Positions 30,091 through 50,160 of a stretch of 64,000 nucleotides of DNA are shown in pieces. Made by a program: the position numbers and the translations under genes. The stretch's first letter is position 1. Every line of letters begins with the position of its first letter. Source of the stretch: Thraustochytrium sp. TN22 (Eukaryota; Sar; Bigyra; Thraustochytrida; Thraustochytriidae); NCBI GenBank assembly GCA_013306675.1, contig JABLUY010000030.1:23531-87530 (forward strand), in the 5' to 3' direction. The notes beneath the pieces are model-generated. The model was not told where the DNA came from. It searched no databases and saw only the letters and a program-made list of their open reading frames with translations.

Positions 30091-30242
30091 CGCGTGCGTC
30101 CTACGTTTGCTTGCGTGTGGCGGGGTGCGCCGCAATTCTGATCTGCTGCTACAGCAGCTCGAGTCGCGTGCGTCCTACGTTTGCTTGCGTGTGGCGGGGT
30201 GCGCCGCAATTCTGATTTGCTGCTACAGCAGCTCGAGTCGCG
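30091..30242. repeat. 74-bp tandem duplication
   Basis: Two adjacent 74-bp units, beginning GCGTGCGTCCTACGTTTGC and ending with CAGCAGCTCGAGTC. I see one difference between them (GATCTGC versus GATTTGC), so the duplication is recent. It lies 58 bp upstream of the lectin ATG. Confidence 0.9.
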
Positions 30243-33195: not shown

Positions 33196-35532
33196 GCTGC
33201 CGTACCGGACCGGAGCGCCGAGCGGAGTGGCGCGACCTCGCTCGCGACCCTCTCCCTCCCTCACTCCCTCGCTCGCTCGCTCGTGCGCCTGCGCGCGCGC
33301 CGCTCAAGCTCTCCCTCGCGCGTGGCGCGTGCGTCGAGTTCCGCCTTGCCGTGAGAGAGAGAGAAAGAGAGCGAGAAAAAGCTTGCTCGCGATGCTCGAT
33401 GCCGGCCCGTTCAAACCCGCGCCAGCGACTCGCGCCGCGCTCTGCCGCTCGCGCCCGGGCGCCGCGCCGGCCGCGGGCTCGCGCTCTGCCGCCGCTCGCG
33501 CCGCCGCCGCGCCTCGCCGCGCCGCGCCGCGCAGGTCGCGGTTCTGCTGCCGGGCGCGGCGCCGCGGACCCGGCGCGCTAGGCCGCGCCTACCGCAAACG
33601 CTAGGTCCAGGCGCCGCGTGCAGGCCCTCGCCCCAAACCTCGCCGCCGCCGGCCTGCCGCCGCGCTGCGCTGCCCTGGCTCGCGTCGCGCCGCGCGGCAG
33701 GCGCCGCGTGCAGTGCGGCGCGGCGTCTGCGCTGAGCGTCGCGAGCCTGGCCTGCCAGCGCCGCTCGACGGCCTCGGTTTGAATTTTGGCCTGCGGCGGC
33801 GGCTTGGGGACTTGGACCAGGCTGCACTCCGTCAGCGCGCTCGCGGCCGTCTCCCCGCCGGCCAGACCGTGCTGCGGCCAGCGCCGCGCCGCGCCGCGCC
33901 GCGCCGCGCCGCCGCGGGCTTGGGGACGAGCACGCGCGCGCGGCCGCCGCTGGCCTTTTGCCGCGCGCAGGGCGCGTGCGGGGTCAGCTTTTGCCGCTAC
34001 GAGTCGCGGGTCAGGTCGGGTCGCTGCGCTACGCCCGCGGCGTCGCGCTCGCAGCCTGAGCTGCGCGTCGCCGCAGGGACTCCACCGCGGCGTCGGCGGC
34101 GGCGTCGGCGGCGTCGCGCGGCGTCGCGTCCTCCGCGCCGCGCACGGCGTCCAGGTCCTGCTCCGCGTCCACCTCGCGCCCGTCCTTGGCTTGCAAATTC
34201 TACGCTACGCCCGCGTCGCGCTCGCAGCTGCGCGTCGAAACTTGGTCGCGTCGTTTTTGTCGTCGTCGTTTTGTCGTCGTCTTCGTTGTCGTCGCGCGGC
34301 GCCGTATCCTCCGCGCCGCGCACGGCGCCCAGGTCCTGCTCCGCGTCCACCTCGCGCCCGTCCTTGGCTTGCAAATTCTACGCTACGCCCGCGTCGCGCT
34401 CGCAGCTGCGCGTCGAAACTTGGTCGCGTCGTTTTTGTCGTCGTCGTTTTGTCGTCGTCTTCGTTGTCGTCGCGCGGCGCCGTATCCTCCGCGCCGCGCA
34501 CGGCGTCCAGGTCCTGCTCCGCGTCCACCTCGCGCCCGTCCTTGGCTTGCAAATTCTACGCTACGCCCGCGTCGCGCTCGCAGCTGCGCGCCGAAACTTC
34601 GTCGCTTCTTTGTCGTCTTTGTCGTCTTTGTCGTCGCGCGGCGCCGTATCCCCCGCGCCGCGCACGGCGTCCAGGTCCTGCGCCGCGTCCAGCAGCTCCA
34701 GCTCGCGCCCGTCCTTGGCTCGCAAACGCTGCGACGATGCCCCGTTCCGCCGCCACTGGCGGTTCCCCGAGCGCGGCTGCGGGCGGTCCCCCGGCGCGGC
34801 CCCCCTCGGCGGAACCCTGCCCGGAACCCCCGAGGCGGGTCAGGCGGCGCGCGCGGGGGGCAGCTGTGTGGGGGGCGGGCCCAGTGGCCGCGGGGGGCAG
34901 CGCGCAGGTCCGCCGCCCCGTTCAAATTTGCAAGCGCGGAAAGCAGCCAAGCCCTCGCCGCGCGGCGCCGCGCAGAGGCGCTCGCTCGCTCGCCCGGGCC
35001 CGCGCGCGGCCCGCCGCCGGACGCGACCCGCGGCCGCGCACGCCGCCGCCGCCGCGCGTGGCTCGCGCGGGTCCTGCCGAGTCGAGTCATTTCATTTCAA
35101 TCGTTCATTTCATCAACTCAAGAGGCCGGGCCGGAGCGCGCCGCGGAGCGCCGCGTGCGCGCGCGCGCGCGGCCCGCGACCAGCCAGCCCGCGAGCGAGC
35201 GGACGCCGCCCGAGCGACGGACGCGCCGGGGCGAGCGGGGACGGGCTCTGCGCGTTGGAGCGCGGCCGCGGGCGCTGCCGGCGGGCCGCCGGCGCGCGGG
35301 CCAGGGCGCAGGCGCTGCGACCCGGACCTGGGCGGCTGGCACGCGCCGACGTCCGTCGCGTTCCATCCATCCATCCATCCCTCTATCCTCGATCCATCCG
35401 TCCAGGAGAGGAGCTGCTCCGCCGGCCGCCGGCGCTGCGGCTGCTGGCCTGCGTGCGCGAGCGCCGGAGGTCTCGCCGCCCGGCCGCGCGCCCGGCCGCG
35501 CGCGGCCCCCGGCCGCCCGCCCCGCGGCCGCC
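33196..35532. other. Divergent intergenic region dominated by a 178-bp tandem array
   Basis: About 2.3 kb between the coiled-coil gene and the Q-rich regulator. GCTC-type runs lie at 33269-33284 and 34979-34992, and a four-unit 178-bp array lies at about 34021-34735. CATC tetramers (about 35363-35380) and a very GC-rich leader precede the next ATG. The open frames through the array rotate frame at each unit, so I do not call them genes. Confidence 0.6.
34021..34735. repeat. Four-unit 178-bp tandem repeat
   Basis: Successive units share TACGCCCGC, CGCTCGCAGCTGCGCG, GCGCCGCGCACGGCG, CCAGGTCCTGC and GCGCCCGTCCTTGGCT. The word GCAAATTC recurs at 34193, 34371 and 34549, giving an exact 178-bp period. 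The middle two units are nearly identical; the first and last are diverged. The unit length is not a multiple of three, yet the array stays open in several frames on both strands. Confidence 0.92.
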
Positions 35533-38584: not shown

Positions 38585-38682
38585 TTGCGAGATGACTCTT
38601 TGTTGCGAGATGACCTTTCGTTGCGAGATGACCTTTCGTTGCGAGATGACCTTTCGTTGCGAGATGACCTTTCGATGCGAGA
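38585..38682 (+). repeat. 18-bp minisatellite
   Basis: About five units of ACCTTTCGTTGCGAGATG, with degenerate copies at both ends, downstream of the regulator's stop codon. It lies just left of the transposon nest. It has no unique spacers, so it is not a CRISPR array. Confidence 0.9.
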
Positions 38683-38743
38683 GGACACTCCATTTTGAGA
38701 CAGGTCTTCACATTTCGAGACCACACGTCACTTCGCATTTCGC

Positions 38744-38747
38744 ATAT
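38744..38747. repeat. ATAT target-site duplication, left side of the nest
   Basis: ATAT directly precedes the CCC terminus of copy A. The matching ATAT lies at 45767-45770, after the GGG terminus of its detached tail. ATAT also occupies the three internal junctions (41040-41043, 43381-43384 and 45722-45725). Confidence 0.85.
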
Positions 38748-39203
38748 CCCAATCACACCTCTATGCTTACTCGTATCCGCCTACCACGCGGGGGTCCCTC
38801 GGTGACGCCCGGCACAGGGGGCACTAAAGCGTATTAAGAGGGTACTTTACTCCCGATTTGCTCCAAAAAAGTGGCCTAGAGTCTGGCGAAGTTAGTTCCG
38901 CATTCGATCAAAAACGCAGCGATGGGGCCGAGCTTGAAGAGGCCCACTCGAAGCGACCCAAGGCTCCTGCCCCCTATTCATTTTGGCCGAAGGCGTGGTG
39001 GTTAGGATGAGATGAGCTCGGCAGTTCGCCCAGAGCGGCTTTGGGGGGAGCTCGCGCGCGACTTCGTCGCGGAGCGCGCTGGAGCCGCAGGCGCTGCGGC
39101 GCGCGGCTGCAGGCGGCCCTGGCGGGTGCCTTGTGCCTGCTCTCAGCTCGCACGCCCCTGCCGCAGCGCTTGGACGTGGAGTCGGGCCCGCACTGCGACA
39201 TCA

Positions 39204-39414
39204 TGGCATCGGCGAGGCCTAACCACCGCGTGGAGGACGACAGCGACAGCGACAGCGACAGCGAGTTCGTGCCCCTGGACAAGCGGGACACAGGGGACGA
39301 AGACGAAGAAGGAGAGGAGCTTGGCGACGAGGATGCTCGTGCTGAGGCCGCTGCGCAGCAAGACTTCGAAGACATACTTGCGTTGGTCGACGAACCGACG
39401 CGTGGTGCGAGTGC
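39204..39414 (+). CDS. Transposon copy A: acidic N-terminal coding segment
   Basis: From the ATG at 39204 the frame encodes about 70 residues beginning MASARPNHRVEDD, with four Asp-Ser dipeptides and a long Asp/Glu run ending QDFEDILALVDEP. Acidic N termini of this kind precede many piggyBac-family transposases. The frame runs on past this point without similarity, and the nuclease-like sequence continues in another frame. Confidence 0.5.
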
Positions 39415-39850
39415 ATGTTCGAGGTCGGCCTCATTCAGCACAAGACCGTTCCGGGGCTCGCAGTCTCGCCGGATGGAGTCGCTCGCGTCCGGCTTCCAGG
39501 CGCGGAGTGCGACGCATCGTCAGTACTATGCAGCGTCGAGATCAAGACGCGCGTCGCGCCTGGAGGCGCGGTAGACGCACGTATCGTGAGCACCCAGATG
39601 AACACGTGGGGGACGAGACTTGGTGGAAGGCCATACCTGCCGAGCACCGCGCGCAAGTCTTGCACCAAGCTGTGGTCCTCCAAATCGATCACGTGCTCTA
39701 CGTTGCTGCCAGCACGAGTTCGTGTTTGTACGCCTGCCTCGTTGAAGTGCCTCCGGACGCCCGGCTCGCCATGGAGCGCGCTCTGAAACCGTGGGCGGAC
39801 AAGCTCACGACATGGGCGCACCAGAGCATCGACAGCGGGTGCGCCGCCCA
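39415..39850 (+). CDS. Transposon copy A: YqaJ/lambda-exonuclease-like nuclease segment
   Basis: The first part (to about 39590) reads EVGLIQHKTVPGLAVSPDGVA and then CSVEIKTRV. This is the D-x(n)-E-x-K core of YqaJ/lambda-exonuclease PD-(D/E)XK nucleases, with Asp at 39472-39474, Glu at 39538-39540 and Lys at 39544-39546. The second part continues in another frame as HRAQVLHQAVVLQIDHVLYVAAS, matching the Q-x-x-H-Q helix and following strand of the same family. The N-terminal helix of a typical YqaJ domain is not seen. Whether splicing, frameshifting or decay explains the frame change is open. All three copies share it. Confidence 0.7.
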
Positions 39851-40878
39851 AGCCACCTGCCATCTTCGGCGAGGAGGAGGGGGCGGTGCTGAGCTCGCAC
39901 TTCCGGCTGTGGCGCGCCATGCGCAAGCTTGTCGCTCTGAAGGGGCCCATGCGGCCCGTGCATGTCATCAAGTGCTTACCGCAGGAGCTATACAACGTCG
40001 CAAAGGGCGGCGTCGACGGAAGCACACAGTACGTGGAGCAGATCACCAACACGCAGTGCATGAATCTGAGCTGCGACCAGAACATCGCGTTGCGCACGTA
40101 CAAGCAGCTCGTTGTCAACGCCATCGTGGTCTACCGCTACTTACAGGCTGCGAGGAAGAGCAACCTCGAAGACAGCGACGGGCTAAAGGCCCTCCGCGAC
40201 AAGGTGAACCGCTCTGAAGCGCTCAGCACTGTCTCGTTCCGCCTCACTGTCGACATGGTCCGTCACGTCTACAGGAGCAGGCAGCTCGATACGGCGCAGG
40301 TGGAGTTCAACATGCAGCCAAGCATGCCCAAGCCCACTGGGCTCACCAGGGAAGCGGCGAGGGACCTCGTGACCGCCGGTAAGCGCAAGCGAACCCCCGA
40401 GTTGCAGAAGTTCTTCAACCACGGCCAAGCCCGCGACATCCGCCTCGATGCCGCACTGCAACATGACTCAGAGGCAGCGGGAAAGGCATCCTTCAACGCC
40501 AACAACAAGAGGATTCCCGCCAAGCGGCTCTGCGTCATCTGCGGCAAGCAAACGCACCGTCGTTGCACCATCTGCGGTGTGCCTCTGCACGTGTTCATGA
40601 GAAAGAATGAACGCACAACCTGCTTTTCCAAGTGGCACACGCGCGTGCGCGTCGAGCCTCACGAAGGCTTCAAGAAGCGCAAGACAAACGTCAACGGAAC
40701 ACCTTCGCCCATTTGCCTCGATCATGTCGATTCGAGCAGCGCCAGTGCCTCGTCCGGTACCCCTACAGCGCAGAGCAGGAACGACCACGTAGCCCAAGCC
40801 AGCTACACCGACACCCCATCAAGCCATAGTTCAAGATCCTCTCGCAGCAGCCTCAGCACGAGTCCATCGTGCCCTTGA
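39838..40878 (+). CDS. Transposon copy A: piggyBac-type transposase C-terminal region
   Basis: About 346 residues beginning PPKPPAIFGEEEGAV. The segment LYNVAKGGVDGSTQYVEQI, followed after about 25 residues by KQLVVNAIVVYRYL, matches the K-G-G-V-D...N-x-x-x-x-Y block around the third catalytic Asp of piggyBac transposases (codon 40015-40017). The C-terminal Cys-rich finger is intact: C-V-I-C-x7-C-T-I-C-G-V-P-L-H...C-x-x-x-W-H (about 40534-40640), followed by a Ser-rich tail. I found no counterpart of the first two catalytic Asp residues anywhere in the element, so it either lacks a full DDD core or works differently. Confidence 0.78.
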   Translation, partial: GAPPKPPAIFGEEEGAVLSSHFRLWRAMRKLVALKGPMRPVHVIKCLPQELYNVAKGGVDGSTQYVEQITNTQCMNLSCDQNIALRTYKQLVVNAIVVYRYLQAARKSNLEDSDGLKALRDKVNRSEALSTVSFRLTVDMVRHVYRSRQLDTAQVEFNMQPSMPKPTGLTREAARDLVTAGKRKRTPELQKFFNHGQARDIRLDAALQHDSEAAGKASFNANNKRIPAKRLCVICGKQTHRRCTICGVPLHVFMRKNERTTCFSKWHTRVRVEPHEGFKKRKTNVNGTPSPICLDHVDSSSASASSGTPTAQSRNDHVAQASYTDTPSSHSSRSSRSSLSTSPSCP

Positions 40879-41249
40879 TGCAGCCCAAGTTGGCCTCAGC
40901 ATCCGCACAGGCCAGTCGGAAGTGACCAACACTTTACGCTTCCATACAAACCCAGTAGTTGAAAGTTCCAAAAATGATTAGAATCATGATAGCAACAGGT
41001 CAGTCGAGCGCAAGCAGGAGAGCCGATTTACTAGGGATAATATCCCAATCCCATCGCCCTAGACGGAGTTTAATCAGGATAGCCATATTATCCCTAGTAA
41101 ATCGGCTCTCCTGCTTGCGCTCGACTGACCTGTTGCTATCATGATTCTAATCATTTTTGGAACTTTCAACTACTGGGTTTGTATGGAAGCGTAAAGTGTT
41201 GGTCACTTCCGACTGGCCTGTGCGGATGCTGAGGCCAACTTGGGCTGCA

Positions 41250-42290
41250 TCAAGGGCACGATGGACTCGTGCTGAGGCTGCTGCGAGAGGATCTTGAACT
41301 ATGGCTTGATGGGGTGTCGGTGTAGCTGGCTTGGGCTACGTGGTCGTTCCTGCTCTGCGCTGTAGGGGTACCGGACGAGGCACTGGCGCTGCTCGAATCG
41401 ACATGATCGAGGCAAATGGGCGAAGGTGTTCCGTTGACGTTTGTCTTGCGCTTCTTGAAGCCTTCGTGAGGCTCGACGCGCACGCGCGTGTGCCACTTGG
41501 AAAAGCAGGTTGTGCGTTCATTCTTTCTCATGAACACGTGCAGAGGCACACCGCAGATGGTGCAACGACGGTGCGTTTGCTTGCCGCAGATGACGCAGAG
41601 CCGCTTGGCGGGAATCCTCTTGTTGTTGGCGTTGAAGGATGCCTTTCCCGCTGCCTCTGAGTCATGTTGCAGTGCGGCATCGAGGCGGATGTCGCGGGCT
41701 TGGCCGTGGTTGAAGAACTTCTGCAACTCGGGGGTTCGCTTGCGCTTACCGGCGGTCACGAGGTCCCTCGCCGCTTCCCTGGTGAGCCCAGTGGGCTTGG
41801 GCATGCTTGGCTGCATGTTGAACTCCACCTGCGCCGTATCGAGCTGCCTGCTCCTGTAGACGTGACGGACCATGTCGACAGTGAGGCGGAACGAGACAGT
41901 GCTGAGCGCTTCAGAGCGGTTCACCTTGTCGCGGAGGGCCTTTAGCCCGTCGCTGTCTTCGAGGTTGCTCTTCCTCGCAGCCTGTAAGTAGCGGTAGACC
42001 ACGATGGCGTTGACAACGAGCTGCTTGTACGTGCGCAACGCGATGTTCTGGTCGCAGCTCAGATTCATGCACTGCGTGTTGGTGATCTGCTCCACGTACT
42101 GTGTGCTTCCGTCGACGCCGCCCTTTGCGACGTTGTATAGCTCCTGCGGTAAGCACTTGATGACATGCACGGGCCGCATGGGCCCCTTCAGAGCGACAAG
42201 CTTGCGCATGGCGCGCCACAGCCGGAAGTGCGAGCTCAGCACCGCCCCCTCCTCCTCGCCGAAGATGGCAGGTGGCTTGGGCGGCGCACC
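41250..42290 (-). CDS. Transposon copy B: piggyBac-type transposase C-terminal region
   Basis: Identical in predicted sequence to the copy A segment: the GGVD block (Asp codon at 42111-42113) and the C-terminal Cys-rich finger are both present. Same limits and same missing upstream catalytic residues as in A. Confidence 0.78.
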   Translation of the reverse strand, partial: GAPPKPPAIFGEEEGAVLSSHFRLWRAMRKLVALKGPMRPVHVIKCLPQELYNVAKGGVDGSTQYVEQITNTQCMNLSCDQNIALRTYKQLVVNAIVVYRYLQAARKSNLEDSDGLKALRDKVNRSEALSTVSFRLTVDMVRHVYRSRQLDTAQVEFNMQPSMPKPTGLTREAARDLVTAGKRKRTPELQKFFNHGQARDIRLDAALQHDSEAAGKASFNANNKRIPAKRLCVICGKQTHRRCTICGVPLHVFMRKNERTTCFSKWHTRVRVEPHEGFKKRKTNVNGTPSPICLDHVDSSSASASSGTPTAQSRNDHVAQASYTDTPSSHSSRSSRSSLSTSPSCP

Positions 42291-42713
42291 CGCTGTCGAT
42301 GCTCTGGTGCGCCCATGTCGTGAGCTTGTCCGCCCACGGTTTCAGAGCGCGCTCCATGGCGAGCCGGGCGTCCGGAGGCACTTCAACGAGGCAGGCGTAC
42401 AAACACGAACTCGTGCTGGCAGCAACGTAGAGCACGTGATCGATTTGGAGGACCACAGCTTGGTGCAAGACTTGCGCGCGGTGCTCGGCAGGTATGGCCT
42501 TCCACCAAGTCTCGTCCCCCACGTGTTCATCTGGGTGCTCACGATACGTGCGTCTACCGCGCCTCCAGGCGCGACGCGCGTCTTGATCTCGACGCTGCAT
42601 AGTACTGACGATGCGTCGCACTCCGCGCCTGGAAGCCGGACGCGAGCGACTCCATCCGGCGAGACTGCGAGCCCCGGAACGGTCTTGTGCTGAATGAGGC
42701 CGACCTCGAACAT
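42278..42713 (-). CDS. Transposon copy B: YqaJ-like nuclease segment
   Basis: Same sequence as in copy A, including PDG, E-I-K and the downstream Q-x-x-H-Q helix, with the same change of frame. Confidence 0.7.
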
Positions 42714-42924
42714 GCACTCGCACCACGCGTCGGTTCGTCGACCAACGCAAGTATGTCTTCGAAGTCTTGCTGCGCAGCGGCCTCAGCACGAGCATCCTCG
42801 TCGCCAAGCTCCTCTCCTTCTTCGTCTTCGTCCCCTGTGTCCCGCTTGTCCAGGGGCACGAACTCGCTGTCGCTGTCGCTGTCGCTGTCGTCCTCCACGC
42901 GGTGGTTAGGCCTCGCCGATGCCA
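42714..42924 (-). CDS. Transposon copy B: acidic N-terminal segment
   Basis: Same acidic stretch as copy A. The base differences that separate B from A lie just upstream of this ATG. Confidence 0.5.
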
Positions 42925-43590
42925 TGATGTCGCAGTGCGGGCCCGACTCCACGTCCAAGCGCTGCGGCAGGGTCGTACGAGCTGAGAGCAGGCACAAGGC
43001 ACCCGCCAGGGCCGCCTGCAGCCGCGCGCCGCAGCGCCTGCGGCTCCAGCGCGCTCCGCGACGAAGTCGCGCGCGAGCTCCCCCCAAAGCCGCTCTGGGC
43101 GAACTGCCGAGCTCATCTCATCCTAACCACCACGCCTTCGGCCAAAATGAATAGGGGGCAGGAGCCTTGGGTCGCTTCGAGTGGGCCTCTTCAAGCTCGG
43201 CCCCATCGCTGCGTTTTTGATCGAATGCGGAACTAACTTCGCCAGACTCTAGGCCACTTTTTTGGAGCAAATCGGGAGTAAAGTACCCTCTTAATACGCT
43301 TTAGTGCCCCCTGTGCCGGGCGTCACCGAGGGACCCCCGCGTGGTAGGCGGATACGAGTAAGCATAGAGGTGTGATTGGGATATCCCAATCCCATCGCCC
43401 TAGACGGAGTTTAATCAGGATAGCCATATTATCCCTAGTAAATCGGCTCTCCTGCTTGCGCTCGACTGACCTGTTGCTATCATGATTCTAATCATTTTTG
43501 GAACTTTCAACTACTGGGTTTGTATGGAAGCGTAAAGTGTTGGTCACTTCCGACTGGCCTGTGCGGATGCTGAGGCCAACTTGGGCTGCA

Positions 43591-44631
43591 TCAAGGGCAC
43601 GATGGACTCGTGCTGAGGCTGCTGCGAGAGGATCTTGAACTATGGCTTGATGGGGTGTCGGTGTAGCTGGCTTGGGCTACGTGGTCGTTCCTGCTCTGCG
43701 CTGTAGGGGTACCGGACGAGGCACTGGCGCTGCTCGAATCGACATGATCGAGGCAAATGGGCGAAGGTGTTCCGTTGACGTTTGTCTTGCGCTTCTTGAA
43801 GCCTTCGTGAGGCTCGACGCGCACGCGCGTGTGCCACTTGGAAAAGCAGGTTGTGCGTTCATTCTTTCTCATGAACACGTGCAGAGGCACACCGCAGATG
43901 GTGCAACGACGGTGCGTTTGCTTGCCGCAGATGACGCAGAGCCGCTTGGCGGGAATCCTCTTGTTGTTGGCGTTGAAGGATGCCTTTCCCGCTGCCTCTG
44001 AGTCATGTTGCAGTGCGGCATCGAGGCGGATGTCGCGGGCTTGGCCGTGGTTGAAGAACTTCTGCAACTCGGGGGTTCGCTTGCGCTTACCGGCGGTCAC
44101 GAGGTCCCTCGCCGCTTCCCTGGTGAGCCCAGTGGGCTTGGGCATGCTTGGCTGCATGTTGAACTCCACCTGCGCCGTATCGAGCTGCCTGCTCCTGTAG
44201 ACGTGACGGACCATGTCGACAGTGAGGCGGAACGAGACAGTGCTGAGCGCTTCAGAGCGGTTCACCTTGTCGCGGAGGGCCTTTAGCCCGTCGCTGTCTT
44301 CGAGGTTGCTCTTCCTCGCAGCCTGTAAGTAGCGGTAGACCACGATGGCGTTGACAACGAGCTGCTTGTACGTGCGCAACGCGATGTTCTGGTCGCAGCT
44401 CAGATTCATGCACTGCGTGTTGGTGATCTGCTCCACGTACTGTGTGCTTCCGTCGACGCCGCCCTTTGCGACGTTGTATAGCTCCTGCGGTAAGCACTTG
44501 ATGACATGCACGGGCCGCATGGGCCCCTTCAGAGCGACAAGCTTGCGCATGGCGCGCCACAGCCGGAAGTGCGAGCTCAGCACCGCCCCCTCCTCCTCGC
44601 CGAAGATGGCAGGTGGCTTGGGCGGCGCACC
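43591..44631 (-). CDS. Transposon copy C: piggyBac-type transposase C-terminal region
   Basis: Predicted sequence identical to A and B, with the GGVD block and Cys-rich finger. Confidence 0.78.
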   Translation of the reverse strand, partial: GAPPKPPAIFGEEEGAVLSSHFRLWRAMRKLVALKGPMRPVHVIKCLPQELYNVAKGGVDGSTQYVEQITNTQCMNLSCDQNIALRTYKQLVVNAIVVYRYLQAARKSNLEDSDGLKALRDKVNRSEALSTVSFRLTVDMVRHVYRSRQLDTAQVEFNMQPSMPKPTGLTREAARDLVTAGKRKRTPELQKFFNHGQARDIRLDAALQHDSEAAGKASFNANNKRIPAKRLCVICGKQTHRRCTICGVPLHVFMRKNERTTCFSKWHTRVRVEPHEGFKKRKTNVNGTPSPICLDHVDSSSASASSGTPTAQSRNDHVAQASYTDTPSSHSSRSSRSSLSTSPSCP

Positions 44632-45054
44632 CGCTGTCGATGCTCTGGTGCGCCCATGTCGTGAGCTTGTCCGCCCACGGTTTCAGAGCGCGCTCCATGG
44701 CGAGCCGGGCGTCCGGAGGCACTTCAACGAGGCAGGCGTACAAACACGAACTCGTGCTGGCAGCAACGTAGAGCACGTGATCGATTTGGAGGACCACAGC
44801 TTGGTGCAAGACTTGCGCGCGGTGCTCGGCAGGTATGGCCTTCCACCAAGTCTCGTCCCCCACGTGTTCATCTGGGTGCTCACGATACGTGCGTCTACCG
44901 CGCCTCCAGGCGCGACGCGCGTCTTGATCTCGACGCTGCATAGTACTGACGATGCGTCGCACTCCGCGCCTGGAAGCCGGACGCGAGCGACTCCATCCGG
45001 CGAGACTGCGAGCCCCGGAACGGTCTTGTGCTGAATGAGGCCGACCTCGAACAT
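44619..45054 (-). CDS. Transposon copy C: YqaJ-like nuclease segment
   Basis: Same as in copies A and B, with D, E-x-K and Q-x-x-H-Q landmarks present and the same frame change. Confidence 0.7.
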
Positions 45055-45265
45055 GCACTCGCACCACGCGTCGGTTCGTCGACCAACGCAAGTATGACTT
45101 CGAAGTCTTGCTGCGCAGCGGCCTCAGCACGAGCATCCTCGTCGCCAAGCTCCTCTCCTTCTTCGTCTTCGTCCCCTGTGTCCCGCTTGTCCAGGGGCAC
45201 GAACTCGCTGTCGCTGTCGCTGTCGCTGTCGTCCTCCACGCGGTGGTTAGGCCTCGCCGATGCCA
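45055..45265 (-). CDS. Transposon copy C: acidic N-terminal segment
   Basis: The acidic stretch as in A, with one Asp-to-Val replacement near its end. Confidence 0.5.
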
Positions 45266-45725
45266 TGATGTCGCAGTGCGGGCCCGACTCCACGTCCAAG
45301 CGCTGCGGCAGGGGCGTGCGAGCTGAGAGCAGGCACAAGGCACCCGCCAGGGCCGCCTGCAGCCGCGCGCCGCAGCGCCTGCGGCTCCAGCGCGCTCCGC
45401 GACGAAGTCGCGCGCGAGCTCCCCCCAAAGCCGCTCTGGGCGAACTGCCGAGCTCATCTCATCCTAACCACCACGCCTTCGGCCAAAATGAATAGGGGGC
45501 AGGAGCCTTGGGTCGCTTCGAGTGGGCCTCTTCAAGCTCGGCCCCATCGCTGCGTTTTTGATCGAATGCGGAACTAACTTCGCCAGACTCTAGGCCACTT
45601 TTTTGGAGCAAATCGGGAGTAAAGTACCCTCTTAATACGCTTTAGTGCCCCCTGTGCCGGGCGTCACCGAGGGACCCCCGCGTGGTAGGCGGATACGAGT
45701 AAGCATAGAGGTGTGATTGGGATAT

Positions 45726-45766
45726 GGCTATCCTGATTAAACTCCGTCTAGGGCGATGGGATTGGG
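45726..45766 (+). mobile_element. Detached 41-bp right end of transposon copy A
   Basis: This tail (GGCTATCCTGATTAAACTCC at its start, GATTGGG at its end) completes copy A exactly. Main part, one ATAT and tail sum to 2,337 bp, the same length as B and C. It is followed by ATAT at 45767-45770. Confidence 0.95.
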
Positions 45767-45780
45767 ATATTTCAAGACAC

Positions 45781-45965
45781 ACACGCCCTTTCGCTTTTGA
45801 GGCGCTACTTTCAAAAGACATACACGCCCTTTCGCTTGTGAGGCGCTACTTTCGCTTGTGAGGCGCTTCTTTCGCTTGTGAGGCGCTTCTTTCGCTTGTG
45901 AGGCGCTACTTTCGCTTGTGAGGCGCTACTTTCGCTTGTGAGGCGCTACTTTCGCTTGTGATGCG
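45781..45965 (+). repeat. 20-bp minisatellite
   Basis: About eight units of CTTTCGCTTGTGAGGCGCTA, alternating with an ...CGCTTC variant, immediately right of the transposon nest and running up to the 3' end of the L/F-transferase gene. The unit length differs from the 18-bp array on the other side, so the two are separate arrays of similar composition. Confidence 0.92.
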
Positions 45966-45990
45966 CTTCTTCTTGGTGGAAAGCACTGTA

Positions 45991-47157
45991 TCAATCATCC
46001 GCCTCCTCCGCTCCATCGCCGGTGGCTGCTCTTGGTGGCGCCTTTTTGCTATCGGCACGCGCGCGCTTCATCTCAAGACGACGCGCCATCCGCGCCCGCT
46101 TTTTGGCCTGCGACTTGGACATGGACGAGCCAGCACCGCCCGTTTCTGAGCTCCCACTCGCGGCAGGACTCGACGCGCTACTGCTGCCCATGTCGCCTGG
46201 TGCTCTTGGTGGTGCCATTGGCATGGCTGCTGCAGCAGCGGCTGTCGACGCCGGAGCTCCCGCGCGCGCGGCGCTTGCCTTCTCCTCGTCTTGGCGCTGC
46301 TTGACGTAGGGCTCAATGAGTTCGTTCGCCGGCGTGCGTGCCAACGAGAGGTAGTCTATGCGGTGGCCGGTGGCCGCGCGGAGCCGTGCGAGGAAGGCAG
46401 GCCGCCGCACGGAGCGCGCGCCCAGGCGCTCCTTGTAGGGGAGGATCATGCCGAGGTCCCAAAGAGTGATGCCTTTGGAGTAGAGAAACGCTCCGGTGGC
46501 GAGCATCTGCACGGACCCTGCGCTGTCGACGCGTGAGAAGCCCGATAGCGCCGTGTAACAGGCGCCCACGACGTAGCCCACCTCGCCCGCCACGAGTTGG
46601 TCGCCCTGCCACAGCTCGAACGAATGCACAAAGGCGCGGCCCTGGTCGCTGCCCTGCGCACCACGCGCCTGCATTTCACGAAAGGCCACCACGATCGGCG
46701 GGTAGAACCAAGACTCGCCATGCTGCCGGATGATGCCCTCGCACACCGCGTCGAACGCCTGGTCCATGCTCAGCTCAAACCGCCGCGCCTTCTTTCGCGC
46801 GGACTTGGGCACGTGCATGTCGCGCAGCTCCAGCAGGCACCGCGTGCGGTGCAGCTTCGGCAGCAGCGCGTGCTGTCCACCCCCGAGCGACTGGCACATG
46901 GGCAGATACCCCTGCCGCATGAGCGCGCCCACAAAGTCCGGGTCAAACGAGAGCGCCCAGTTGAAATCGCTCCCGTTCCGCTCCGCCACCAGCCTCGTCG
47001 TCTCCTCCAGGTCCATGAACGGGTGCAGGAACGGCAGCCGCGCGAGCCACGAGTTCCTGAGCGCCACCGCCTTCGCCGCGCGCATGTGGGCCGCCATCGC
47101 GTCGCGCGTCCCTGCCTCGCCGCGGCCGCCCGCGCTCGTGCTTGCGCTCGCGCTCAT
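45991..47157 (-). CDS. Leucyl/phenylalanyl-tRNA-protein transferase (Aat) homologue
   Basis: A 388-residue protein related to bacterial Aat, which adds Leu/Phe from aminoacyl-tRNA to N-terminal Arg/Lys and so marks proteins for degradation. The family core spans about 65-260: FDPDFVGALMRQGYLPM, LELRDMHVPKSARKKARRFELSMDQAFDAVCEGI, FVHSFELWQGDQLVAGEVGYVVG, YTALSGFS....AGSVQ, and WDLGMILPYKERLGA. The invariant HS-x-E-x-W and L-V-A/G-G-E-x-G segments are kept. Residues 265-388 are a low-complexity tail ending in a basic region (KKRARMARRLEMKRAR). The ATG at 47157 is used. The long open extension upstream is GC-driven. Organellar or cytosolic location is unclear because no convincing transit peptide is seen. 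Confidence 0.85.
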   Translation of the reverse strand: MSASASTSAGGRGEAGTRDAMAAHMRAAKAVALRNSWLARLPFLHPFMDLEETTRLVAERNGSDFNWALSFDPDFVGALMRQGYLPMCQSLGGGQHALLPKLHRTRCLLELRDMHVPKSARKKARRFELSMDQAFDAVCEGIIRQHGESWFYPPIVVAFREMQARGAQGSDQGRAFVHSFELWQGDQLVAGEVGYVVGACYTALSGFSRVDSAGSVQMLATGAFLYSKGITLWDLGMILPYKERLGARSVRRPAFLARLRAATGHRIDYLSLARTPANELIEPYVKQRQDEEKASAARAGAPASTAAAAAAMPMAPPRAPGDMGSSSASSPAASGSSETGGAGSSMSKSQAKKRARMARRLEMKRARADSKKAPPRAATGDGAEEADD

Positions 47158-47832
47158 CTCGGCCCGCGAGGGCCGCCGCGCCGCCGCCGCTGCCGCCGAG
47201 CCCTGCGCTGCGCCGCGCCGCGCCGCGCCGCCCGCGCGCGCGCCTCCGCCCCGCGCCTGCCCTCGCCCCCGCACCGCGCCGCGCCGCGCCCCGCGCGCGG
47301 CTTCGGTTTTGCCGCGCCGCGCGCAGCTCGCCGTCGCCGGACTCGGACCAGCGCGACCTCGGGCTCCAGCTCGGCCTCGGCTCGCGCCTGCCGCGGCGCT
47401 CCTGCCCGGCTGCTGCGCGTCGGGCGCGCCTCGGAGTCCGCGTCGCAAGTCTTCACGGCGAGTGCTTGCATGCCGTCGTCCTGCTCGAGCGTCTCGTCTC
47501 GGGCGAGGCGCTGCGAGACGCTGGTGGACTGCCCTGTGCGCTCCTCCCTGTGCGCCTGCGCGTGGTGGCTCGCGCTCGTCGTGCTCGTCGCGCTCGTCGC
47601 GCTCTGCACGCTCTGCACGCTCGTCGCACTCTGCACGCCCGTCGCGCTCTGCACGCCCGCCGCGCTCTGCAGGTTCGTGGCGCTCTGCAGGTTCGTGGCG
47701 CTCTGCACGCGCGGCGTGGAGTGTGGAGTGGCCGCGGGACGAGGACGAGGCGACCACGGCGCCACCAACCAGCTCCAGAAGCTGGGGCTGCAGCACCATT
47801 CCCCATTCCGGCAACGCCGCGGCGCGAGGAGC
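47158..47832. promoter_or_regulatory. Divergent promoter region with 18-bp repeats
   Basis: 675 bp shared by the L/F-transferase and TPR-TTL genes. The middle (about 47585-47712) is a minisatellite of an 18-bp unit, GTCGCGCTCTGCACGCCC and variants, in five or six copies. No other gene was recognised. Confidence 0.6.
47585..47712. repeat. 18-bp minisatellite in divergent promoter
   Basis: Five to six imperfect units with core CGCTCTGCA and alternating CGCCC/GGTTC ends, in the middle of the shared promoter. Confidence 0.85.
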
Positions 47833-49602
47833 ATGAGCGCGCAGGCGGAGGCGGCGGACGCGCTGAGCGAGCGCGGCGACTGGGCCGGCGCGGCGCGGCT
47901 GTACGAGGCGAGCCTGGCGAGCGCGCCGGACCTGCTGCATGCGCTCGCCAACTACGCCGTGCTGCTGACGGAGATCGCGGACAGCGGCGGCGCCGATGCG
48001 GTCGGCGGCGTGAGCGCGCTGCGCGCCAAGGCGACCGACCTGTACGCGCGGGCGCTGCGCGCCAAGCCGGACTGGTTCGACGGGCACTACAACCTGGCCA
48101 ACCTGCTCGCGGAGAGCGGCCCCGAGGGCGAGGCCGCGGCCATCGAGCACTACCGCGAGGCGCTCAAGCTGGAGCCGGAGGACGCCGACGCGCACAACAA
48201 CCTGTCCATCTGCCTGCTGCGCGCGGGCCAGCTCGAGACGGCGCTCTTGCACGCCAAGGCGGCGGTGCGCATCGACAAGGCGCGGCCCGCGTTTCTGGCC
48301 AACATCGCGGAGCTCTACAACGCCACGGGCGACGCCAAAAAGGCCATCTTCTTCGCGCGCAGGAGCGCCGACCCGCAGGCGCTCCTGCTGCTCGCCTCGC
48401 TGCACGCGCAGCAAGGCGACCTGGACGGGGCGCGCGCTGCGCTGCAGCAGCTCGTGGACGCCGACGCGCACGCCGACAACCTGCCCGCGCGCCTGCGGCT
48501 CTTCTCGCTGCTCGCCGCCAGGCCGGCCTGGCGCCAGGACGCGCTTGACCTCGCGGCGCGCACCGCCGACCTCTACGCGGCGCGCTGCCCGGCGGACACG
48601 GTCGGCGCCGCGGCGCTGCGGGCGCTCAGCGGCGCGCCGCACGAGGCGACCGACGCCCACGACGAGGCGCCGCTCTCGCACGCCGCCGAGATGTGCGTGC
48701 TGCACCTCAAGCTCGACGACGCCAGCGCGCTCGCGCACAAGTGCCTCGTGCACGAGCGGCTCGTGGCGGCCGGCTCCACGGACATCGCGCCGCGCACGAG
48801 CATCTGCGCCACGGACGAGGAGCTCGCCGCCGCGCTGGCCAAGGTGCCTGAGGGCACGCTCATGTACGTCAAGGACCCGGCCGTGCAGCGCGGCCAGGGC
48901 ATCCGCATCGTGCGCACGCCCGTGCCCGCCGGCGAGGTGCGCGACTGGGTGCCTGCCGGCCGCCGCGTGTGCCTGCAGGAGGCCGTCACGCCCGCGCTCC
49001 TGGACGGCCGCAAGTTCGGCGTGCGCATGCACGTCGCCGTCGTGGCGGACCCGGCCTCCGCCGCCGCCGCTCGCGTCTTTGTCAGCCGCGACGGCATCCT
49101 CACCAAGTGCGGCAAGCCGTACGCGCACGACGACACGGGCGCGCTCGCGCAGATCACCTGCACCAGCGTGCAGCGCGCCGAGGCCGGCTTCGACCGCGAG
49201 GCCGTCAAGGGCCCGGCCGCGCAGCTCTGGGACGCCTTCGACGACGCGCTGCCGCTCATCGACGACGCCGTCCTGCGCTCCGTGCGCGCCGTTGCCGCCG
49301 AGCTCTATGTTCCGCCTGCCGCCGCCGACGGCGCCGGCGATGCCGCCGCCGCCGCGCGGCCGCCGCGCGCGCAGTTCTTCGGCTACGACTTTTGCTTTGA
49401 CGAGGCTGGCCGCCCCGTCTTCATCGAGGCCAACATCTCGCCGCAGTTCCAGGACGCCAAGAGCCTCGCGTCGCTCCGCTCCCGTCTCGCGCCGGACCTC
49501 ATCAACTCCGTGCCGCTGCTGCTGGCGCCCGACGCGGCCGAGGCCTTCGCCGAGCCTGCGCGCGGCTGGAAGTTCGTCGGCACCACCGCCAATGCAATGT
49601 AA
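47833..49602 (+). CDS. TPR-TTL fusion protein
   Basis: A 589-residue protein starting MSAQAEAADALSERGDW. Residues about 3-200 contain at least four tetratricopeptide repeats (A-x-x-L-Y-x-x-x-L; WFDGHYNLANLLAE; ADAHNNLSICLLRAG; PAFLANIAELYNATGD). Residues about 310-575 are a TTL-type ATP-grasp domain: MYVKDPAVQRGQGIRIV (ATP loop), CLQEAVTPALLDGRKFGVRMHVAVV, and FFGYDFCFDEAGRPVFIEANISPQF, with the metal-binding D and E-x-N intact. It is therefore probably an active amino-acid ligase on tubulin or another protein, recruited through the TPRs. It is soluble, unlike the membrane-anchored TTL protein at 25 kb. Its stop codon lies 16 bp from the SPT4 stop on the opposite strand. Confidence 0.87.
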   Translation: MSAQAEAADALSERGDWAGAARLYEASLASAPDLLHALANYAVLLTEIADSGGADAVGGVSALRAKATDLYARALRAKPDWFDGHYNLANLLAESGPEGEAAAIEHYREALKLEPEDADAHNNLSICLLRAGQLETALLHAKAAVRIDKARPAFLANIAELYNATGDAKKAIFFARRSADPQALLLLASLHAQQGDLDGARAALQQLVDADAHADNLPARLRLFSLLAARPAWRQDALDLAARTADLYAARCPADTVGAAALRALSGAPHEATDAHDEAPLSHAAEMCVLHLKLDDASALAHKCLVHERLVAAGSTDIAPRTSICATDEELAAALAKVPEGTLMYVKDPAVQRGQGIRIVRTPVPAGEVRDWVPAGRRVCLQEAVTPALLDGRKFGVRMHVAVVADPASAAAARVFVSRDGILTKCGKPYAHDDTGALAQITCTSVQRAEAGFDREAVKGPAAQLWDAFDDALPLIDDAVLRSVRAVAAELYVPPAAADGAGDAAAAARPPRAQFFGYDFCFDEAGRPVFIEANISPQFQDAKSLASLRSRLAPDLINSVPLLLAPDAAEAFAEPARGWKFVGTTANAM

Positions 49603-49618
49603 CATCACTACGTAGTCC

Positions 49619-50160
49619 TCATGCGTTTTCATCCATGCTAACCTTCGCCAGAACCTTGCGGTTCGAGTCGCGGCAGATCTCCTGCACCTCGTCGATCGGC
49701 TCCTCGTTCACCTTGATGGCATACGTGCCCGGCGTGAAGTTTGCTGCGCATCAACATCACCCGTCAGTCTTTAATCGAGCAAGCACGCAAGCAAGACACG
49801 TAAGCCACAGCAGGGCGACGCGTGAACGTACAGATGCGCTGCCACTTGGCCACCCAGCTTGTCTTGGGCTGCATCATGGCCACGAGTCCCTCGTAGTTCT
49901 TGGTCGTCGCGCCATCCACGATCCTCCTCTCGCCCCAGTCCAAGTGCGGGCAGTTCGGGCACCCATCATCGATAAACTGTGTCACGCGGTCAGTCAGCCC
50001 TCGCCCCGCCGCGCCCGCACTTATCCTCCTCGCGTGCGCAACCTACCTGCGCGTACGTCTTGACGAGCATGCAGACCATGCAGGCGCGGAGGCCCTTCAT
50101 CTCGTCCGGCACGCTGTACTTGCCCACCTGCTCGCCGCCGCCCATCTCATCGTCCGACAT
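49619..50160 (-). CDS. SPT4: Transcription elongation factor SPT4, two introns
   Basis: A 127-residue zinc-finger subunit of the Spt4-Spt5 (DSIF) complex that clamps RNA polymerase II. Exon 1 is 50160-50047 (MSDDEMGGG...RACMVCMLVKTYAQ), exon 2 is 49976-49832 (FIDDGCPNCPHLDW...TSWVAKWQRI), and exon 3 is 49743-49619 (SNFTPGTYAIKVNEEPIDE...). Introns of 70 and 88 nt have GTAGGT and GTACGT donors and CAG acceptors. The joins restore KTYAQ-FIDDGC and WQRI-SNFTPG, which match the family (human WQRVSNFKPG). The four zinc ligands C-x-x-C and C-x-x-C (C27, C30, C44, C47) and the EGLVAMM segment are present. Length is close to the usual 110-120 residues. Confidence 0.95.

Follow-up and report, generated by a model that had tools for sequence, protein, structure and literature searches.

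The 64,000-nucleotide stretch of the thraustochytrid Thraustochytrium sp. TN22 analyzed here (contig JABLUY010000030.1, positions 23,531 to 87,530; "the window") contains, at positions 38,748-45,766, three DNA transposon units (A, B, and C), each exactly 2,337 bp long with CCC...GGG ends. As judged by comparison with longer copies, these units are non-autonomous internal-deletion derivatives of a larger element. The full-length transposase of this lineage is predicted to be a DDD enzyme (catalytic aspartates D1, D2, and D3) in which a YqaJ/RecE-type PD-(D/E)XK nuclease lies between D2 and D3, followed by a Cys-rich finger. The real novelty is this nested nuclease in the full-length parent and its cousins, not the window copies themselves. 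We assign a probability of about 0.75 to the explanation as a whole, in which a nested-nuclease DDD transposase would move the short copies in trans by a hairpin cut-and-paste reaction, with the nuclease acting on DNA ends.

A predicted nuclease nested between the second and third catalytic aspartates

The complete arrangement was found in a cousin element at locus L049 (contig C239), which has a single open frame of 1,213 residues without a frame break. Its order runs from an acidic region through a Cys finger, a piggyBac-like N-terminal part, and the motifs IDDEL (D1) and DRGYS (D2) to the nuclease (W..LR..IT, G-x-x-N-E, SPDG, VEIK, and Q..QQA), and ends with GGVD (D3) and a C-terminal Cys finger. 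Homology of this element to the related locus L051 appears to extend from CCC to GGG, with no clear duplication at the ends. The same order, finger included, was found in the NCBI protein P0004 (1,068 residues) and, up to D3, in P0005 of Durusdinium trenchii (975 residues, a model without the finger). Another protein, P0003 (657 residues, source labelled lgn), stops within the start of the nuclease and is homologous to the L049 protein across D1-D2 with an E-value of 2e-33 in a two-sequence comparison. P0003-P0005 came from protein searches in which only the best ~8,000 candidates by shared words were scored, so that the distribution is a lower bound; a third such search, again with ~8,000 candidates scored, returned no additional relatives. 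Scans of viral and prokaryotic contigs, each with two peptide patterns, confirmed no relatives, which does not show their absence.

D1, D2, and (G/C)GVD stand in one frame in L049, P0004, and P0005, completing the DDD triad, whereas the window copies lack D1 and D2. D1 and D2 lie about 78 residues apart in P0001, P0004, and P0005, close to the 72 of piggyBat. The D2-D3 spacing, in contrast, is 458, 549, and 500 residues, respectively, compared with 104 in piggyBat, according to the triad D237/D309/D413 given in the consulted part of PMC11707139.

The initial annotation of the window knew of no described family with a YqaJ-type nuclease and a piggyBac-type transposase. We found no description of a YqaJ domain nested in a piggyBac-like transposase in the openly licensed PubMed Central literature, which is weak evidence of absence, and three papers holding both terms do not describe it in the passages where the two words occur. 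The nearest described pairing is ISL2EU (PHIS/Harbinger-like), which likewise unites a DDE transposase and a YqaJ exonuclease within one element; according to the excerpts of PMC4482050 and PMC9179366, the exonuclease is encoded by a separate open reading frame (ORF), and its role is stated to be unknown in the former. In our lineage, the nuclease is instead in the same frame as D1 and D2, upstream of D3. The ISL2EU transposase also differs in having HTH (helix-turn-helix)/THAP domains, a 2-bp AT target site duplication, and terminal inverted repeats that usually begin with GG, as opposed to the 4-bp NTAN duplication and CCC ends described here. Teratorn is comparable in being a piggyBac-like element joined to other mobile DNA, except that there a whole large element, a virus, is fused with the transposon; the beginning of its abstract mentions no nested nuclease (PMC10175614).

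Assignment of the insert to YqaJ/RecE nucleases

The initial annotation had called the nuclease YqaJ-type from its motifs, and profile searches with the full-length relatives bear this out. The RecE-like recombination exonuclease family phrog_434 was the top PHROG for all four whole proteins (3.1e-6, 7.1e-5, 1.4e-3, and 0.027) and matched all four isolated nuclease domains (best 1.2e-7), three of which also matched the exonuclease family phrog_149. Among PDB profile searches, the top match was either the exonuclease 3syy (E 0.15) or mimivirus R354 (1.4; 0.26), presumably of the same nuclease fold, all of them weak. W, L-R, T-x-T, G..N-E, S-x-D, E-x-K, Q, and Q-A are invariant in all four sequences and correspond to lambda exonuclease motifs by comparison with the printed lambda sequence. 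The lambda-exonuclease-type active-site positions (R, E, D, E-x-K, and Q), which we take to be the catalytic residues of that enzyme, are invariant in all four sequences with intact D1/D2 motifs and a full nuclease. The motif order W..LR..IT[A/G][S/T], G..E, S-x-D, E-x-K, Q is shared with the YqaJ/lambda exonuclease/RecE family, whose members are stand-alone phage or viral recombination exonucleases as opposed to a domain within a eukaryotic transposase. A scan for reference diversity kept 80 lambda exonuclease loci, all 98-99% identical to lambda.

Several results weigh against this assignment and would favor a coincidental similarity, in which case the insert would be an unrelated domain by which a piggyBac-like transposase has expanded. 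Pfam YqaJ (PF09588) stayed below the cut-off throughout: in P0004 its match spanned positions 2-148 of 150 (E 0.013), and it reached 0.084 in the ORF of the full-length copy L058, and matched two of the four isolated domains (best 7.1e-4). The unrelated 46-residue family SgrT scored as well, with three of the four isolated domains and a best value of 6.1e-4, and the Pfam scan of P0005 gave no match of any family. When the nuclease profile was run against the PDB, a ribosomal protein (0.34) ranked between R354 (0.26) and 3syy (0.7); a single-sequence PDB search with P0001 returned nothing relevant; and hhalign against lambda exonuclease alone was not significant, the sole aligned piece being the W..LR..IT motif, in register. 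Despite these results, a coincidence is highly improbable in our judgment given the phrog_434 ranking, the identity of the top PDB matches, and the presence of all active-site motifs in the right order; moreover, P0005 carries NCBI's own name "YqaJ domain-containing protein". The YqaJ/RecE assignment of the predicted domain is therefore firm in kind, not in detail.

A piggyBac-like sister lineage

The transposase shares with the piggyBac superfamily (piggyBac, piggyBat) the DDD triad, the D1-D2 spacing, and a 4-bp target duplication, and its C-terminal Cys-rich finger may resemble that of piggyBat. GGVD at D3 and CCC...GGG ends are also known from piggyBac and its superfamily, respectively. 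The finger block C-x2-C...C-x2-C-GVPLH...CF..H is conserved in all four sequences, and PF13843 (DDE_Tnp_1_7) was above the cut-off in P0003 (E 7.1e-6). P0001 matched DDE_Tnp_1 at 0.0015, below the cut-off, and NCBIfam gave a partial IS4_2 match in P0001 (1.3e-4, far below the cut-off) and a chance-level match in P0003.

Other observations speak against membership in piggyBac proper. PF13843 was not reported in the other six of seven relatives (P0001, P0002, P0004, P0005, the L058 ORF, and L052), and a genome-wide search with it matched three other loci, none of them of this lineage. The top PDB match of the finger profile, piggyBat 9c0f, was weak (E 0.19), and none of 51 identical flanking tetramers (see below) was TTAA. 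T. ni piggyBac has a second Asp three residues after D3, a position occupied by Thr in this lineage. The lineage further departs from the superfamily in the nuclease between D2 and D3 and in the additional Cys finger near the N-terminus of L049, L050, L058, and P0003. Because PF13843 was unreported in six relatives, its genome-wide matches lie outside the lineage, and the target is not TTAA, we refer to it as piggyBac-like, a sister of piggyBac and not a member. The proposed piggyBac-type transposase is supported in resemblance, through P0003 and, weakly, through the C-terminal finger.

At two loci, L001 (C398) and L002 (C16), PF13843 was above the cut-off in long open frames, in which no nuclease motifs were seen by eye.

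Full-length copies and the origin of the 2,337-bp element

A search of the assembly (37.9 Mb, 453 contigs) with the DDE-nuclease region of the cousin, in which the best 86 of 239 candidates were scored, detected full-length copies on C81, C109, and C394 without stops in the matched frame and on C33 with one stop, each adjoining a window-family C-terminus. The copy read throughout, L058 (C81), is 4,127 bp long. The window unit equals L058 minus 1,771 bp after position 650 and minus 19 bp after position 858 (4,127 - 1,771 - 19 = 2,337). The larger deletion extends from the N-terminal finger through D1 and D2 into the nuclease, whose first half is lost, including the W..LR..IT and G-x-x-N-E motifs in copy A. 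Internal-deletion derivatives are common in other DNA transposons. Further deletion types are represented by L053 (C48), a diverged member with 74% identity at the C-terminus and two stops, and by L051, which belongs to the L049 cousin family.

The window copies encode all that had been noted in them, namely the acidic stretch, SPDG...VEIK, HRAQ...HQA (the Q-x-x-H-Q motif), GGVD, and the Cys finger, spread over different frames with three frame switches. A Pfam scan of these fragments was uninformative. Two of the three switches are explained by the 1,771-bp and 19-bp deletions; the third is also present in L058, where the D3/finger frame is shifted relative to the D2/nuclease frame. An intron at this switch is unlikely on inspection, since the only candidate stretch of fitting length noted there would remove residues conserved in L049 and L050. 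All 115 near-identical C-terminal copies in the assembly, the four full-length elements included, share a 363-codon open frame, and a complete transposase of the exact window family was not found in the assembly. These points count against our interpretation: the shifted D3 frame of L058, together with the same 363-codon frame in all 115 copies, leaves the full-length and cousin elements as no more than candidate sources of the transposase. Either expression joins the two pieces, or whatever now moves the family is unseen in the assembly. The proposed union of a nuclease with a piggyBac-type C-terminus therefore holds for both domains in the full-length relatives and fails for the window element as a functional combination, which has lost D1, D2, and half the nuclease.

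Target sites and self-insertion

Element ends were located by a pattern search with 8 flanking bases, restricted to the subset of exact ends whose outermost printed base was not G; 89 left ends and 100 listed of 106 right ends were used for pairing. Pairing the listed ends at unit length gave 57 units, 51 of which have identical flanking tetramers: 41 ATAT, 3 ATAG, 3 ATAA, 3 CTAT, and 1 TTAT. Ten of the matching tetramers are non-palindromic, so the target duplication is truly 4 bp, of the form NTAN and not the TTAA of piggyBac. The tetramers are unequal in the remaining six units (contigs C18, C35, C266, C332, C414, and C426), and in two more single units in the directly read loci L024 and L037. 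Judged by flank letters, neither side abuts another family copy in 38 pairs, of which 33 match and 5 differ. The unequal unit C426:122433 sits 0.3 kb from another inverted copy, a possible rearrangement. The copies with unequal flanks are nearly identical, as if the donor tetramer stayed on one side. These sites and the junctions show a 4-bp staggered, precise insertion, and cut-and-paste movement is well supported.

The family also inserts into itself. Among 27 neighboring pairs in clusters, 6 are inverted at a 1,364-bp spacing and 7 are in tandem at a 2,296-bp spacing, which are the spacings of a unit inside the internal site of another unit. The internal ATAT near the right end is accordingly a hot spot for same-family insertion in both orientations (13 of the 27 pairs); one tandem junction, in L015, reads CTAT in place of ATAT. 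By a rough estimate based on 12 ATAT in 57 kb of the window, 1.7 such insertions would be expected for ATAT only, and 0.2 if five tetramers were equally used. One of the 13 pairs, in the array C37:47874-52564, has mirror-image flanks and a one-sided degenerate tail and might be an assembly fold-back.

Recent spread in the host genome

The initial annotation had taken the element to be young from its window copies, and the genome agrees. A DNA search that scored the best 35 of 108 candidates yielded at least 57 long matches of about 100% identity, including one truncated by an assembly gap. When the C-terminal ORF served as a protein query (121 of 135 candidates scored), at least 123 matches were obtained. 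At least 115 of these, the window's three and the C-termini of the four full-length copies included, cover residues 2-330 at 98-100%; of the other 8, one is identical and gap-cut, and seven are diverged relatives. The 115 copies are distributed over 88 loci; at 22 of these, at least two copies lie no more than 5 kb apart. These numbers are far above chance, and the element has spread recently and in numbers.

Capture of host DNA by the insertion at C111:399500 was considered and rejected, the stretch being an assembly gap of N. At C189:36800-36915, C255:154054-154124, and C349:7339-7409, the 41-bp tail and ATAT occur two or three times in tandem with a single element body. The inverted element pairs at C79:18289-18635 and C426:122113-122459 have identical inner flanking letters, possibly through segmental duplication of host DNA.

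Nested organization of the window array

The three units differ at 2 (A/B), 1 (A/C), and 3 (B/C) positions. Their number, length, and ends are as first described; they are nested rather than arranged next to one another. An internal ATAT near the right end of unit A divides this unit, a site occupied by B and C, both inverted, which rules out a simple tandem array. ATAT is present at every junction of the block and also flanks the whole block (Table 1).

Table 1. Features of the transposon block in the window (positions of the window).
Feature	Position	Strand	Remark
ATAT, left target site duplication of unit A	38744..38747	none	
Unit A, left part, CCCAATC end to internal ATAT	38748..41043	+	Starts CCCAATC at 38,748; sums to 2,337 bp with 45726-45766
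Copy A, acidic N-terminal segment (MASARPN...)	39203..39397	+	Ends at the 1,771-bp deletion junction
Copy A, middle of the putative YqaJ/RecE-type nuclease (FEVGL..SPDG..VEIK)	39398..39605	+	Ends at the 19-bp deletion
Copy A, nuclease end (GDETWWKAIPAEHRAQVLHQA...)	39606..39839	+	Another frame
Copy A, transposase C-terminus with GGVD (third catalytic Asp) and Cys finger	39840..40878	+	Frame shifted from the preceding nuclease segment, as in full-length L058
ATAT between A and B, the internal target site of A	41040..41043	none	
Unit B, complete, 2,337 bp	41044..43380	-	Inverted in the internal ATAT of A
Copy B, C-terminal ORF	41250..42242	-	330 residues, same as A
ATAT between B and C	43381..43384	none	
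Unit C, complete, 2,337 bp	43385..45721	-	Inverted, beside B
Copy C, C-terminal ORF	43591..44583	-	330 residues, same as A
ATAT between C and the tail of A	45722..45725	none	
Unit A, right tail, 41 bp	45726..45766	+	Ends GATTGGG at 45,766; detached from the left part by units B and C
ATAT, right target site duplication of unit A	45767..45770	none	

Tandem repeats flank the block at 45809-45971 (~20 bp) and 38595-38690 (~18 bp, by eye), and others lie at 34097-34630 (~178 bp) and 30091-30238 (~74 bp). The adjoining reading frame 45991-49632 (-) contains a leucyl/phenylalanyl-tRNA protein transferase domain (PF03588, E 3.3e-24), which is mainly bacterial.

Diverged relatives with altered active sites

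Four further relatives in the same genome, L050, L052, L143, and L144, are open throughout the stretches read. L050 (1280-5026) is open for 1,249 codons and L052 (1229-4423) for 1,065, where base composition predicts ~33 and ~21 stops, respectively; their third-position GC of 0.81-0.82 is coding-like. L143 and L144 are open for 500 and 433 codons. All four keep the nuclease domain, each having lost one or more active-site residues, and in L050 and L052 the D1 motif is changed or missing and there is no D2. They may be host genes derived from the lineage by domestication.

Proposed mechanism and alternative explanations

We propose that the short copies are mobilized in trans by the transposase of full-length or cousin elements. 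Movement would proceed by cut-and-paste via a piggyBac-like hairpin carrying 4 flanking bases, and such a hairpin could account for the unequal tetramers in 6 of the 57 units, with the donor tetramer on one side and the target tetramer on the other. The built-in nuclease would act on the DNA ends made during transposition, resecting or trimming them. We favor the guess that the nuclease resects the emptied donor ends in the 5'-3' direction, which would promote copy-restoring gap repair; aborted gap repair would leave internally deleted copies, and the internal-deletion derivatives fit this route, lending it weak support. The usual view of cut-and-paste transposases is that the host repairs the site they vacate. 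A bolder reading is that of a two-nuclease transposase, whose exonuclease takes part in every jump, by hairpin opening or trimming or by a donor resection that forces copy-restoring repair, in a lineage that is spread across distant protists and has also produced host genes retaining the domains without their active sites; we put it forward tentatively, as somewhat less probable than its negation.

The nuclease domain could also be present without being catalytic in transposition, serving as a structural or DNA-binding insert at the position of the insertion domain of other DDE transposases. The insertion subdomain of piggyBat indeed lies between D2 and D3, and four of the six lineages seen in the genome (L050, L052, L143, and L144) keep the domain with active-site residues lost. 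The piggyBat subdomain is described as beta-stranded in the consulted part of PMC11707139. We consider this non-catalytic role unlikely, yet the most serious of the alternatives, because no active-site position varies among the four sequences that have intact D1/D2 motifs and a full nuclease, whereas L050 and L052, with D1 altered or missing and no D2, look like immobile genes and not like active transposases whose nuclease is dead (D1/D2 of L143 and L144 were not read).

The 2,337-bp element might instead be functional as it is, its own ORFs, for half a nuclease and for GGVD with the finger, moving it or repressing its relatives. Its C-terminal frame is uninterrupted in each of the 115 copies, and no form is more frequent than the short one, with 78 of the best 86 nuclease matches spanning only the piece kept by the window element. 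This is improbable for an element that has neither D1 nor D2 and whose nuclease, its first half missing, is divided between frames; an intact ORF is expected in near-identical copies from recent spread alone. Nor is the window array likely to be an assembly artefact, a fold-back or a set of collapsed repeats in place of real nested insertions. The mirror-image flanks on both sides of the C37 array are typical of fold-back artefacts, and the copy at C111:399500 holds its gap of N, but the window array has differing left and right flanks, three distinguishable copies, and a precise ATAT at each junction, and nesting of the same logic recurs at other loci with unique flanks. The chance of such an artefact is, in our view, very small.

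If the proposed mechanism with trans mobilization and a nuclease acting on ends is true, a transposase with a built-in end-resecting nuclease could steer its donor site to copy-gaining repair, and with this lineage the reason for which some DNA transposons have a YqaJ nuclease could be tested directly. The duplications seen here also extend the targets of piggyBac-like enzymes beyond TTAA to ATAT/NTAN.

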